In this document: piece by piece, positions 1 to 59,990 of the stretch
Position numbering within the stretch: the first letter of the stretch is position 1
Layout of the letters: every line of letters starts with the position of its first letter
From: an uncultured Bacteroidales bacterium
GTDB lineage: Bacteria; Bacteroidota; Bacteroidia; Bacteroidales; Bacteroidaceae
Direction: 5' to 3'
Length of the DNA: 59,990 nucleotides
Assembly (NCBI GenBank): GCA_945787885.1
Contig: CALZJF010000012.1
Span: 1 to 59,990, forward strand
Notes under the pieces: model-generated
What the model was told of the DNA's origin: nothing
The model's input: the letters and a program-made list of their open reading frames with translations, nothing else
Databases searched by the model: none
Translations under genes and position numbers: made by a program

Positions 1-81
1 GATACGGTGCGAGAGGCGTGAAGACATCCAAGTAAAACAGAAACACTGCCTTACACTGAAAACTAATTTATAGAATCTACC
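1..81 (-). mobile_element. MITE-like repeat, copy A (partial, cut by the window edge)
   Basis: This is the terminal 81 bases of the 189-bp element seen complete at 3989-4177, and it ends in the inverted-repeat end GAATCTACC. The next four bases, TTTA (82-85), would be one half of the target duplication. The other half lies outside the window. It abuts a type-2 repeat whose sequence breaks off exactly here. No coding capacity is seen. Confidence 0.85.
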
Positions 82-3977: not shown

Positions 3978-3988
3978 TGCTCTTTCAA

Positions 3989-4177
3989 GGTAGGTTCTAT
4001 AAATTAGCTTGCGATGTATTTGCGACTATCGTGCCGTAGGTTTTTGTTTTTCACGAGGGAGCGTAGCGTGCTACGTGACTGAATGAAAGACAAAAAGATA
4101 CGGTGCGAGAGGCGTGAAGACATCCAAGTAAAACAGAAACACTGCCTTACATTGAAAACTAATTTATAGAACCTACC
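3989..4177 (+). mobile_element. MITE-like element, copy B (complete, 189 bp)
   Basis: The ends GGTAGGTTCTATAAATTAG and CTAATTTATAGAACCTACC are perfect inverted repeats. The flanks carry a 4-bp target duplication, TCAA, at 3985-3988 and 4178-4181. The interior has no reading frame worth calling but contains a conserved hairpin, CGTAGC-GT-GCTACG, around 4067-4080. The complete copy at 18173-18361 has the same length in the opposite orientation. It fills most of the gap between the thioesterase gene and aroB, and is presumably moved by a transposase encoded elsewhere. Confidence 0.88.
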
Positions 4178-4263
4178 TCAAAAGAATGAGGAGTGTGGAA
4201 TCTGAAGCCTCAGATGGGCAATTCCTCATTCCTCATTCTCCCAGAAGTTTATACGCCCTCCTT

Positions 4264-7734: not shown

Positions 7735-8658
7735 ATGTGGTTTTTGATGGCTCTCGTATCTGCCTTGTTGTTAGGTTTTTACGATGTGGCAAAGAAATAC
7801 AGTCTGAAGGGAAATGCCGTCATTCCCGTCTTGTTCCTGACGACATTGTTTTCAGCCCTTCTCTTTCTCCCACTGATAGTTGGCAGCCGAATGGGTTGGC
7901 TTGCCCCCGGCAGTCTTCTCTACGTCCCGTCGTGCGAATGGGCACTGCATCGATGGGTGGTGCTGAAAGCCCTCATTGTGCTTGGTTCGTGGATGTGTGG
8001 TTATTTTGCCATTAAGCATCTGCCGCTCACGATTGTTGGTCCCGTCAATGCAGCACGTCCCGTCATCGTTGTCGTTGGGGCCTTGTTGTTTTTTGGCGAG
8101 CGCCTGAACGCATGGCAGTGGCTGGGCGTTGGGGTGGCAGCCATTGCTTTTGTCCTGCTGGGGAATACCGGGCGCAAAGAGGGAATATCGTTTGTGCGCA
8201 ATCGTTGGGTTTTTCTGCTTGTTCTCGCCGCCATTCTTGGTGCCGCCTCTGGTCTCTACGACAAATATCTGATGTCGCGCATCGGTCTTCATCCGTTTTT
8301 CGTGCAGAGCTGGTTCAGTCTGTGGCAGGCTGTCATGATGCTCGTGGTCCTGCTGGTGTGGTGGCGTTCTCTGAAGACTGCGGAACGCCCTCAGCATGGT
8401 GGATTCACCTGGAGGGGAAGCATTCTTCTCATTCCCCTCTTCCTCAGTGCCGCCGATGCCTGCTATTTCCACGCGCTGGCAGACTCAGATGCTCTGATAG
8501 CCATTGTTTCGATGGTGCGCCGCAGTAGTGTAATCGTCAGTTTCGTCTTTGGAGCCATTTTCTTTCATGAAAAGCAGATACGCAGTAAAGCTGCCGACCT
8601 TCTTCTGCTGCTGTTAAGCATGGTCTTCCTGTGTCTGGGAGCAATGAGTGAAGGGTAG
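7735..8658 (+). CDS. EamA/DMT-family transporter
   Basis: Inner-membrane protein of 307 residues with ten predicted helices in two five-helix repeats, the standard drug/metabolite transporter layout. The first EamA repeat ends with FGERLNAWQWLGVGVAAIAFVLLG and the second with FFHEKQIRSKAADLLLLLLSMVFLCLG, the conserved E-R/K...LG endings of each half. The substrate cannot be inferred. It is the last gene of the first plus-strand block, followed by a 590-base gap with repeats. Confidence 0.85.
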   Translation: MWFLMALVSALLLGFYDVAKKYSLKGNAVIPVLFLTTLFSALLFLPLIVGSRMGWLAPGSLLYVPSCEWALHRWVVLKALIVLGSWMCGYFAIKHLPLTIVGPVNAARPVIVVVGALLFFGERLNAWQWLGVGVAAIAFVLLGNTGRKEGISFVRNRWVFLLVLAAILGAASGLYDKYLMSRIGLHPFFVQSWFSLWQAVMMLVVLLVWWRSLKTAERPQHGGFTWRGSILLIPLFLSAADACYFHALADSDALIAIVSMVRRSSVIVSFVFGAIFFHEKQIRSKAADLLLLLLSMVFLCLGAMSEG

Positions 8659-8880
8659 GGGGAAACTTGCATTCTTTGTAGGAAAGTCCAATGGTGCAGA
8701 GAGCGGACGTGCTTCGTCCGCACACTGCTTACCCCGGAGTGTTCAGGAAAACACGCGGTTATATCAAGAAGTAAGCATAGTTTTGCACAAACAGATATAG
8801 GACACGCAGAGAATGCTTGGAGACCGACAGGCTGAGCGAGAAAATGCGATAGAAACCTTCTAAAACTTGACGGCACATAT

Positions 8881-18039: not shown

Positions 18040-18172
18040 TAAAACGCTTGTTATCACCTTTATACCAGCCTTTCGAGTGGAAATTAGTCAATTAGAATGT
18101 AGGAATCAGGAATGAAAAACAGGCATCATGAGAGGGGAATTTGGCTAAGACAGAGAGAATATTAGCATTATA

Positions 18173-18361
18173 GGTAGGTTCTATAAATTAGTTTTCTATA
18201 TAAGGCAGTGTTTCTGTTTTACTTGGATGTCTTCACGCCTCTCGCACCGTATCTTTTTGTCTTTCATTCAGTCACGTAGCCCGCTACGCTCCCTCGTGAA
18301 AAACAAAAAACTACGACACGATAGTCGCAAATACATCGCAAGCTAATTTATAAAACCTACC
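18173..18361 (-). mobile_element. MITE-like element, copy C (complete, 189 bp)
   Basis: This has the same length as copy B in the opposite orientation. The ends GGTAGGTTCTATAAATTAG and CTAATTTATAAAACCTACC form inverted repeats with one mismatch. The target duplication TATA is at 18169-18172 and 18362-18365. The internal hairpin is CGTAGC-CC-GCTACG, where the loop differs from copy B while both arms are kept. It lies between the dapA promoter and the 3' end of the aldo-keto reductase gene. The rest of the 18040-18405 gap shows nothing else. Confidence 0.88.
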
Positions 18362-18405
18362 TATAGTCAAGATGGAAGAAACTTTGAGAAGTCTTCAAAG
18401 CATTA

Positions 18406-20309: not shown

Positions 20310-20870
20310 GTAAGTAGGAAGAAAAATTAGTTTACAGTAAGATGTTTTATTCCTATAGTACATTTCGTCTCGGAGTGACCATTATGAAGGGAAAAATGAC
20401 CATTTCCTGGAGTCAAGATAATCACTTAGTGGGGCGAAAATGATGACTTGGGAAGCAGGAAATCTGTAGAAAGATTGCAAAGCCCGGAATTTTCACCACA
20501 ACTACACAATTCATGCCAGTCAGAACAGAGTGAATTTCACGGGTTCTGGGGGCGAAAAGGGGCTTCCTGAGGTTGATTTATCAACAAGCATTAACTCAAC
20601 AGGAAGCACGCCCCGTATAGTTCCTCGGATAAGGGCAACATATTTGGCACTGGTTATAGGTAACCTCTATAAATTTCTTTGCGATGGAAGGTTGTGTTTC
20701 TGTTTTACTTGGATAACTTCACGCCTCACGCACCGTATCTTTTTGTTTTTCATGCAGTCACGTAGTCCGCTACGCTTCCTCAGGAAATCAAAAACCTGCG
20801 GCACGATAGCTGCGACCACATCACAAGCTAATTGATAGAACCTACCTATAAGCTAATTCTTGCGACTTAC
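20310..20870 (+). repeat. Type-2 intergenic repeat, copy 2 (interrupted by MITE copy D)
   Basis: The sequence can be aligned through its length with 33491-33848. The left end is GTAAGTAGGAAGAAAAATTAG and the right end CTAATTCTTGCGACTTAC, which form imperfect inverted termini. The four ~22-bp units lie at about 20366-20460, followed by TTGCAAAGCC, TTCATGCCAGTC, ACAAGCATTAAC and ATAGTTCCTCGGATAAGG blocks shared with the other copy. A MITE at 20659-20846 splits it near its right end. Without the MITE and its duplicated TATA, the element is about 369 bp and fills the gap between two minus-strand genes. Confidence 0.8.
20659..20846 (-). mobile_element. MITE-like element, copy D (188 bp, diverged)
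   Basis: The left end GGTAACCTCTATAAATT and right end AATTGATAGAACCTACC are imperfect inverted repeats. TATA is duplicated at 20655-20658 and 20847-20850. Its body aligns with copy C but has many substitutions, including a broken hairpin arm (CGTAGT-CC-GCTACG), so this is the oldest-looking copy. It is inserted in a type-2 repeat, and the paralogous uninterrupted site is at about 33820-33830. Confidence 0.85.
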
Positions 20871-33491: not shown

Positions 33492-33848
33492 AAGTTGGTA
33501 ATAATATTAGTTACTGTAAGATGCCTTACTTCTACGGCACATTTCGTCTCAGAGTGACCATTTTGAAGGACAAAATAGCTATTTACCGAGGGCAAAATAA
33601 TCACATAGGGGGATGAAAATGATTACTTGGGAAGCCGGAGTTCTGAAGAAGGTTTGCAAAGCCTGAGATTTTCACCACGGCTACTCATTTCATGCCAATC
33701 CGAACTGATTGGATTTCATGGGTTTAGGGGAGGGCTTCCTGATTCAGACTTATCTACAAGCATTAACACAACGAAGCATGCCCCAGATAGTTCCTCGGAT
33801 AAGGACTACACATTTAGTACTTCTTAAAAACTAATTCTTACGACTTAC
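33491..33848 (+). repeat. Type-2 intergenic repeat, copy 3 (complete, uninterrupted, about 358 bp)
   Basis: It spans the whole gap between the DUF4199 start codon and the 3' end of the AmpG-like gene, whose TAA stop is formed by the element's terminal ACTTACTT. The left end is TAAGTTGGTAATAATATTAG and the right end CTAATTCTTACGACTTAC. Four tandem ~22-bp units lie at about 33544-33635. This copy represents the uninterrupted form against which MITE copy D at 20659 can be measured. A 66-residue frame at 33627 is not considered coding. Confidence 0.8.
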
Positions 33849-43648: not shown

Positions 43649-43718
43649 CTTTTTTCCTGCGCCATCCCGCCCTTTGGATGGCTCATCTTGCGTATCTACG
43701 ACCTTCCACCTCACATTT

Positions 43719-43825
43719 CATCTCTGAGTGACCATTCTAAAGGAAAACATGACCATTTTGTGAGGTTAAAATAATCACTTTGAGGGGTGAAAATGATTAC
43801 TTGGGAAGCAGAAGTCCTGTAGATT
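43719..43825 (+). repeat. Type-2 intergenic repeat, core only
   Basis: CATCTCTGAGTGACCATT, then three further units of about 22 bp and TTGGGAAGC, align with the core of copies 1-3. The outer parts are lacking: the similarity stops shortly after GTCCTGTAG. A 92-residue frame crossing it on the minus strand is not accepted as a gene. The stretch 43826-44090 shows nothing else that I recognise. Confidence 0.7.
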
Positions 43826-59835: not shown

Positions 59836-59860
59836 TAAGTAGGTAATGAAAATTATTTTA
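59836..59860 (+). repeat. Type-2 intergenic repeat, left end (interrupted by MITE copy E)
   Basis: GTAAGTAGGTAATGAAAATTA matches the left end of copies 2 and 1 (GTAAGTAGG and GTAGGTAAGAAAAATTATTTT). The MITE begins at 59861 and the rest of the repeat is beyond the window. Its left end again faces the start codon of a gene, the DJ-1-VOC fusion. Confidence 0.55.
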
Positions 59861-59990
59861 GGTAGGTTCTATAAATTAGTTTTCTATGTAAGGCAGTGTT
59901 TCTGTCTTACTTGGATGTCTTCACGCCTCTCGCACCGTATCTTTTTGTCTTTCATTCAGTCACGTAGCCCACTACGCTCCATCGTGAAAA
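59861..59990 (-). mobile_element. MITE-like element, copy E (partial, cut by the window edge)
   Basis: The first 130 bases of the 189-bp element in copy C orientation, starting GGTAGGTTCTATAAATTAG and nearly identical to copy C over the shared part. The left target-duplication half would be TTTA at 59857-59860. The internal hairpin is CGTAG-CCCA-CTACG. The window ends inside it. Confidence 0.85.

Follow-up and report, generated by a model that had tools for sequence, protein, structure and literature searches.

The 59,990-base stretch of DNA analysed here, referred to as the window, contains a 189-bp sequence at positions 3989..4177 that recurs at other places in the same stretch. Its occurrence raised the question of whether it represents a MITE family mobilised in trans, and of what is carried between its inverted ends.

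Copies in the window and in the host genome

Three complete and two edge-cut copies with shared inverted ends were located in the window, as the original prediction had described them. The first complete copy (3989..4177, plus strand, hairpin on the plus strand) is flanked by the target duplication TCAA (left 3985..3988, right 4178..4181), and its structured RNA core, a long hairpin, occupies 4008..4128 (+). The second, likewise of 189 bp, has its hairpin on the minus strand (18173..18361, −), with TATA at 18169..18172 and 18362..18365 and the core at 18222..18342 (−; scored at 91.2 bits by a covariance model built on the core). The third copy is diverged and 188 bp long (20659..20846, −); it is flanked by TATA at 20655..20658 and 20847..20850 and contains a core at 20708..20827 (−; 63.2 bits). 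The right part of a further copy lies at 1..81 (+) and is followed by TTTA at 82-85, while part of another at 59861..59990 (−) is preceded by TTTA at 59857-59860 and includes a partial core (59910-59990, −; 51.5 bits). The predicted duplications, TCAA, TATA and TATA together with one TTTA half at each edge copy, were thus all read in the sequence. The window is the entire contig C12, and both of its edges are therefore assembly breaks within MITE copies. The 19-mer end was detected seven times in the window with up to three mismatches, compared to 0.01 occurrences expected from dinucleotide-preserving shuffles; the end at 20659 of the third copy has more than three mismatches and was missed at this threshold. 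The longest stop-free frame across the three complete copies comprised 59 codons, indicating that the copies contain no transposase gene, in agreement with the predicted lack of a reading frame.

Other repeats were observed in the window. A second intergenic family (88-227 on the minus strand, 20350-20502, 33529-33678 and 43703-43823), with aligned and folded copies about 78-83% alike, is not recognisably related to the MITE and has no clear ends; two of its copies lie near MITE copies. A 54-bp repeat (20603-20656 and 33773-33826, 81% alike) is situated downstream of two copies of this second family.

A whole-genome search for the termini had been put forward as a check. In the host assembly (2.70 Mb in 96 contigs), the 16-bp end core was found with at most one mismatch 177 and 184 times, a total of 361 termini, and its reversed control was absent. 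These termini correspond to about 180 MITE copies. Among 277 candidates, the 40 copies scored by BLAST covered the whole element and matched the first window copy at 98-100% identity, which suggests a recent burst.

Three sources supplied 158 distinct copies in which both ends were present, 157 of them with readable flanks. An exact 4-bp duplication was present in 84 of the 157 copies versus 1461 of 19879 mixed flank pairs (7.3%). The longest flank match among the 158 copies was 4 bp in 84 cases, 5 or 6 bp in three and 3 bp or less in 71, and the commonest targets were TATA, TTAA, TTTA and TAAA. Most copies measured about 190 bp: 123 of 158 fell into the size class of 174-205 bp, the remainder ranged from 50 to 370 bp, and the ends were 19 bp long. 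Further host copies had lengths of 79, 80, 105, 203 and 258 bp. The element is short, has terminal inverted repeats, duplicates its target, lacks a transposase gene and is present in high copy number. It is a MITE, and the family is real and recently active. The original reading holds in these respects (small size, no coding capacity, many copies, inverted ends and duplications), but it was incomplete, as the RNA core had not been foreseen.

A conserved hairpin core

Just inside one element end, a core of about 121 nt folds into a single long hairpin. The aligned copies share the order of end, adjoining core, variable tail and second end. For the core of the first window copy (4008..4128) an MFE of −57.6 kcal/mol (z −9.7) was calculated, compared to −36.3 kcal/mol (z −6.3) for the reverse strand.

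For the comparative analysis, the 123 copies of the 174-205 bp class were dereplicated to 90, which were alignable over nearly their full length. These were reduced to 78, with eight host copies plus the window copies kept, and finally to 71 by dropping the host copies L008, L014, L021, L022 and L031 and the divergent L052 and L143. Three rows stayed in the set: L070, which looks chimeric, and L084 and L182, both of them poor. The dropped L143 matched the covariance model with 56 bits. No match was obtained for L052 and L141 (about 192 bp), two elements of around 190 bp with window-type ends from the same genome (G047), nor for the 75-bp and 85-bp elements L079 and L153.

RNAalifold, applied to the whole element, revealed double changes in 29 of 41 pairs. 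In a 44-pair structure over the 71 copies, 88.4% of 3073 cells were paired as opposed to 70.1% after shuffling, and 545 cells with double changes compared with 157.4 in the shuffled alignments; none of 500 shuffles equalled any of five covariation measures. When the partners were slid by 1-3 columns, 90-160 double-change cells remained instead of 545, a comparison which favours the 44-pair structure since it was derived from the alignment under test. Given that cells are not independent events, changes were also placed by parsimony on a FastTree tree. On 102 branches, distributed over 34 of the 44 pairs, both partners had changed and the pair was kept, whereas the slid controls gave 3-15 such branches. 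Double changes that broke the pair numbered 22 (slid controls 5-13). One-sided pair-breaking changes amounted to 156 versus 171-211 in the slid controls, so the pairing constraint is real but loose.

A search of the window against Rfam 15 gave no match at gathering score; for 16 other loci, only miRNA models far below gathering score and one tRNA gene were obtained. The original prediction had treated a functional RNA under selection as a possible refutation of the MITE. The covarying core does present a structure under selection, yet the MITE reading stands beside it, and both hold for the same element.

One strand of the core is favoured

The forward strand was the stabler one in 70 of 71 cores, with mean values of −43.4 versus −32.5 kcal/mol. 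In a fold derived without G·U pairs, and hence symmetric between the strands, 146 G·U cells were counted against 77 A·C cells. Several mismatches are conserved: at columns 52-53/79-80, G·A occurs in 49 and A·G in 57 of 71 copies, and G·A occupies columns 56/76 in 59 and columns 34/98 in 45 of the 71. The partners beside them vary, with A·U in 25 and A·G in 19 copies at columns 35/97 and C·A in 36 and A·G in 21 at columns 57/75. Strand preference and conserved G·A mismatches together point to RNA of one strand as the probable functional form of the core, rather than to a cruciform.

The position of the copies relative to genes was evaluated for 101 copies that had a neighbour no more than 1 kb away on each side, using script-made ORF calls and copy orientations assigned by fold energy. 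The core strand was sense to both neighbours in 46 copies and antisense to both in 20 (p = 0.0019, in a set that includes orthologous or otherwise non-independent copies), and in 35 of the 101 copies the two flanking genes had opposite directions. For the sense-to-both copies, the median distances to the two neighbours were 29 and 17 bp. This intergenic position and the sense bias fit, as indirect evidence, selection on a read-through RNA.

The core in elements with other ends

In the genus, the 16-bp end core (at most one mismatch) was present in 23 of 58 genomes. The covariance model of the core matched in 30 of the 58, including 13 of 19 good assemblies, with 1 to at least 62 core copies per matching genome, and several core-positive genomes lacked window-type ends. 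A scan of genome contigs for end variants, which excluded the subfamily of the window, yielded at least 80 stretches from Alistipes sp., Rikenellaceae, Bacteroidaceae, Paludibacteraceae, Prevotellaceae, Prevotella, Candidatus Colicola and uncultured Bacteroidales MAGs. Many of the MAGs concerned were ruminant-derived, and 48 of 63 copies in these stretches measured 186-195 bp.

Several further types of ends were found around the core. In G003 and G007 the core is enclosed by AACCCAAATCGGTCATTAGA ends; 27 of 35 end pairs of this class in G003 span 194-197 bp, and 9 of 11 copies from the two genomes have a duplication of 3 bp instead of 4 bp, which probably reflects another transposase. Single loci in G043 and G044 hold 194-bp elements with AGAAACTGTTTTGAATTTATC ends and identical cores, and single loci were likewise found for a 190-bp element with AGTAACGGTAAAATAATAAG ends in G014 and a 196-bp element with TAAGTAGGTGTTCAGAATGAAT-type ends in G010. 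The GGGTGGTTCTAATAATTC ends in G057, which are related to those of the window, delimit elements of 181 bp (19 of 24 end pairs span 180-182 bp). The second core copy of L244 (870-990, +; 63.4 bits) belongs to a 193-bp element whose ends, AGAAGATGTTT, are different again. Of 23 model-found places inspected for ends, two lacked inverted ends and L273 had ends of only 8 bp. Among the 21 elements with ends, three of them akin to those of the window, 18 preferred the same strand and three folded equally well or better on the reverse strand. The fit of these loci to the model is not independent of how they were found; their ends and duplications are.

Plasmid and phage searches for the family returned nothing. 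Viral contigs, searched with two core patterns and one end pattern, gave a single stretch in total: a core copy (67.7 bits) at 8610-8729 (−) of L300, an IMG/VR contig of 12,639 bases classed as viral. This copy has a GGCTTGTTCTATTAATTAG end and lies in a 2.4-kb region in which no ORF reaches 100 aa.

Core-less elements and orthologous sites

Host derivatives of 79/80 bp that lack the hairpin core were flanked by an exact 4-bp duplication at five of five sites; a 105-bp derivative had no exact 4-bp duplication. The core-less 79/80-bp elements have thus moved, and the hairpin core is not needed in cis for transposition.

Comparison of related genomes revealed two sites occupied in both of two genomes (L172/L180 and L202/L237). 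The occupied site L225, with a copy that has no duplication, lacks the element in the relative L183, where the junction could not be aligned exactly. At another orthologous site, a 191-bp copy in L175 is matched by a 76-bp core-less remnant in L198. For the copies of the window itself, no empty sites were found in relatives. A lone leftover MITE end with the same neighbouring sequence was noticed in two genomes (L172, position 1609, and L180, position 5301), which suggests a slow decay of old copies.

Search for an autonomous partner

Mobilisation in trans had been deduced from the missing transposase, and it agrees with the anatomy of the elements and with the genomes and loci searched, none of which yielded a transposase-bearing transposon with these ends. 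An IS with the same ends and 4-bp duplications did not turn up among the loci inspected for PF01609, PF03400 and PF13359 in the host and its relatives. No parent was found in what are draft assemblies, so that its absence is weak evidence.

The near-complete G003, with 92 ends, contains three end-to-end spans of 4.5-5.0 kb, two of which have a nearer end inside and the third host genes; the 4.5-kb span was rejected as a partner as it contains genes for a TonB receptor, a thiamin pyrophosphokinase and an NMN transporter. In G057 (63 ends) no end-to-end span exceeded 300 bp, and the single 2.4-kb span of G058 (64 ends) has a nearer end inside it. None of the 80 end-variant loci had an end pair more than 300 bp apart.

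The domain PF01609 (DDE_Tnp_1) was absent from the host and present in 28 of the 58 genomes of the genus, and none of 30 PF01609 loci taken from a longer list had a pair of MITE ends around the transposase. A multi-copy element of G056 (L110, L137, L159-L161) was seen to carry a single unpaired end-like 21-mer, GGGGTTCTGTATAAATTAAAG, near its transposase domain. The ends of the IS5 and IS1 families also have a G-rich start and are partly similar to the MITE ends. PF03400 (IS1 family transposase) was found in none of the 58 genomes, and PF13359 in one, at five loci without a pair of MITE ends. Pfam assignments for 43 of 57 ORFs beside unpaired ends pointed to ordinary genes; the families listed, 25 out of 49, include no transposase.

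Two loci deserve separate mention. On the host contig C3, a decayed transposase-like remnant (L089, approximately 297-856) with a ACGTGAGTTCG end lies inside a MITE end. It presumably is of the IS982 type, and it was rejected as a partner, since its own ends, judged by eye, mark it as an insertion into the end of a MITE copy. In the Porphyromonas literature, a similar end belongs to ISPg3, which is placed there under IS5 (PMC4596501). In L280 (G003:C6 2675000-2693000), repeats mostly 2580 bp apart each contain the same truncated end of the second class, several with an adjacent PF01609 fragment. The partner transposase of the MITE may lack such ends, may be lost or may fall into unassembled repeats.

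Interpretation and alternative explanations

We favour, with a probability of about 0.6, a trans-mobilised MITE superfamily that carries a structured RNA of one strand, whose probable site of action is read-through mRNA. The superfamily would consist of MITEs of about 180-196 bp in Bacteroidales, with ends on which DDE-type transposases act in trans by cut and paste; we infer these enzymes to leave 4-bp duplications in the window class and 3-bp duplications in the second class with its unrelated ends. As RNA of one strand, the core of about 121 nt would fold into a long hairpin with conserved G·A mismatches. A role in read-through mRNA is suggested by gene position and strand bias. There a protein that binds double-strand RNA, RNase III for instance, might attach to the core or cleave it, by analogy with the Neisseria elements described below. 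An action of this type could render an insertion tolerable or useful to the host; core-bearing copies might thereby be retained, and various transposase systems could come to adopt them. The structured RNA seems to spread inside simple transposons and to keep its shape between species while sequence and ends change.

Tentatively, this reading may be extended: the RNA family, not the transposon family, could be the unit of inheritance, with several chassis carrying the hairpin because the RNA helps an insertion to persist. The RNA could, for instance, allow the insertion to be removed from mRNA or let it have a protective effect there. Mobile elements that capture the core RNA would then out-compete bare MITEs.

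Against a role of the RNA stands the explanation as a plain MITE, in which the hairpin descends from a palindrome and has no function; template switching or conversion would keep its two arms alike, so that they co-vary without selection. The transposition of core-less derivatives is in line with it, as are some adjacent pairs of the apical stem that change together, the orthologous copy that lost the core alone, and the two elements of about 190 bp, L052 and L141, with these ends and no match to the core model. Correction between arms would erase mismatches, however, yet G·A mismatches are retained at fixed positions; it would also be neutral with respect to the strand, yet 70 of 71 cores prefer the same one and G·U cells exceed A·C cells. 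As the core moreover persists across unrelated ends, we regard this explanation as unlikely.

A free-standing non-coding RNA with a function in trans, for which the transposon ends serve as a vehicle, appears rather improbable. It would account for a core conserved across end types and occurring in 30 of 58 genomes of the genus, but copy numbers between 1 and at least 62 among the matching genomes would be unusual for a housekeeping RNA.

The hairpin could also act on the level of DNA, as cruciform or single strand, and help the transposase to bind, the ends to pair or the element to replicate. Such a function is very improbable: the core does adjoin one end in the aligned copies and element size is tightly clustered within each class, but elements of 79/80 bp moved without the core and acquired proper duplications at new sites, the same core is combined with the ends and duplication lengths of different transposases, and the excess of G·U over A·C fits RNA better, as a cruciform counts both strands alike. 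Fixed, non-mobile host RNA genes are hardly credible, for although two sites are shared by related genomes, about 180 host copies, of which the 40 scored among 277 candidates are 98-100% identical, and exact target duplications contradict immobility, and L183 lacks the element at the L225 site, with a junction that is not exact.

Significance and comparison with known elements

If the preferred reading of a MITE superfamily with a structured RNA is right, some bacterial MITEs are more than remnants left by deletions in IS elements: they carry a conserved RNA that is independent of their ends. The family would then allow the causes of MITE maintenance in genomes to be tested directly and would add to the gut Bacteroidales an RNA family that matches nothing in Rfam 15. 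MITE copies would also explain some of the contig breaks in gut assemblies, both ends of the window being such breaks.

No description of the element was found among the open-access papers that the literature searches listed, subscription journals being outside their scope. Rfam families such as Bacteroidales-1 likewise represent structured RNAs of Bacteroidales, and none of them matched the window at gathering score. The genus Cardinium also belongs to the Bacteroidota. A MITE of about 240 bp, MITECca01, is described from a Cardinium symbiont (PMC9769881); its authors name a known parent of the IS982 family, whereas none was found for the MITE of the window, and the words hairpin and secondary structure are absent from their text. 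The Porphyromonas gingivalis elements MITE239, MITE464/PgRS and BrickBuilt are MITEs of Bacteroidales as well, and BrickBuilt is intergenic. Their ends, given as ACGTGAGTTCGA..., GAGACTGTTGCA... and GAGACCTTCGCA in print, differ from those of the window MITE in a comparison by eye and resemble known IS ends of that species (PMC4596501).

The Correia elements of Neisseria (CREE/NEMIS) share with the present family the short length, inverted ends, target duplication, lack of a transposase and a hundred or more copies, and RNase III binds or cleaves the hairpins that they form in mRNA (PMC2649163). They differ in their TA target and in their sizes of mostly 104-108 or 153-157 bp, while the duplication of the elements described here is 4 or 3 bp. 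Furthermore, the hairpin of CREE/NEMIS is formed by the terminal repeats, whereas the covarying hairpin of the present family is an internal core apart from the ends. This core, a strand-specific covarying hairpin that recurs in elements with unrelated ends, is the unusual feature of the family.
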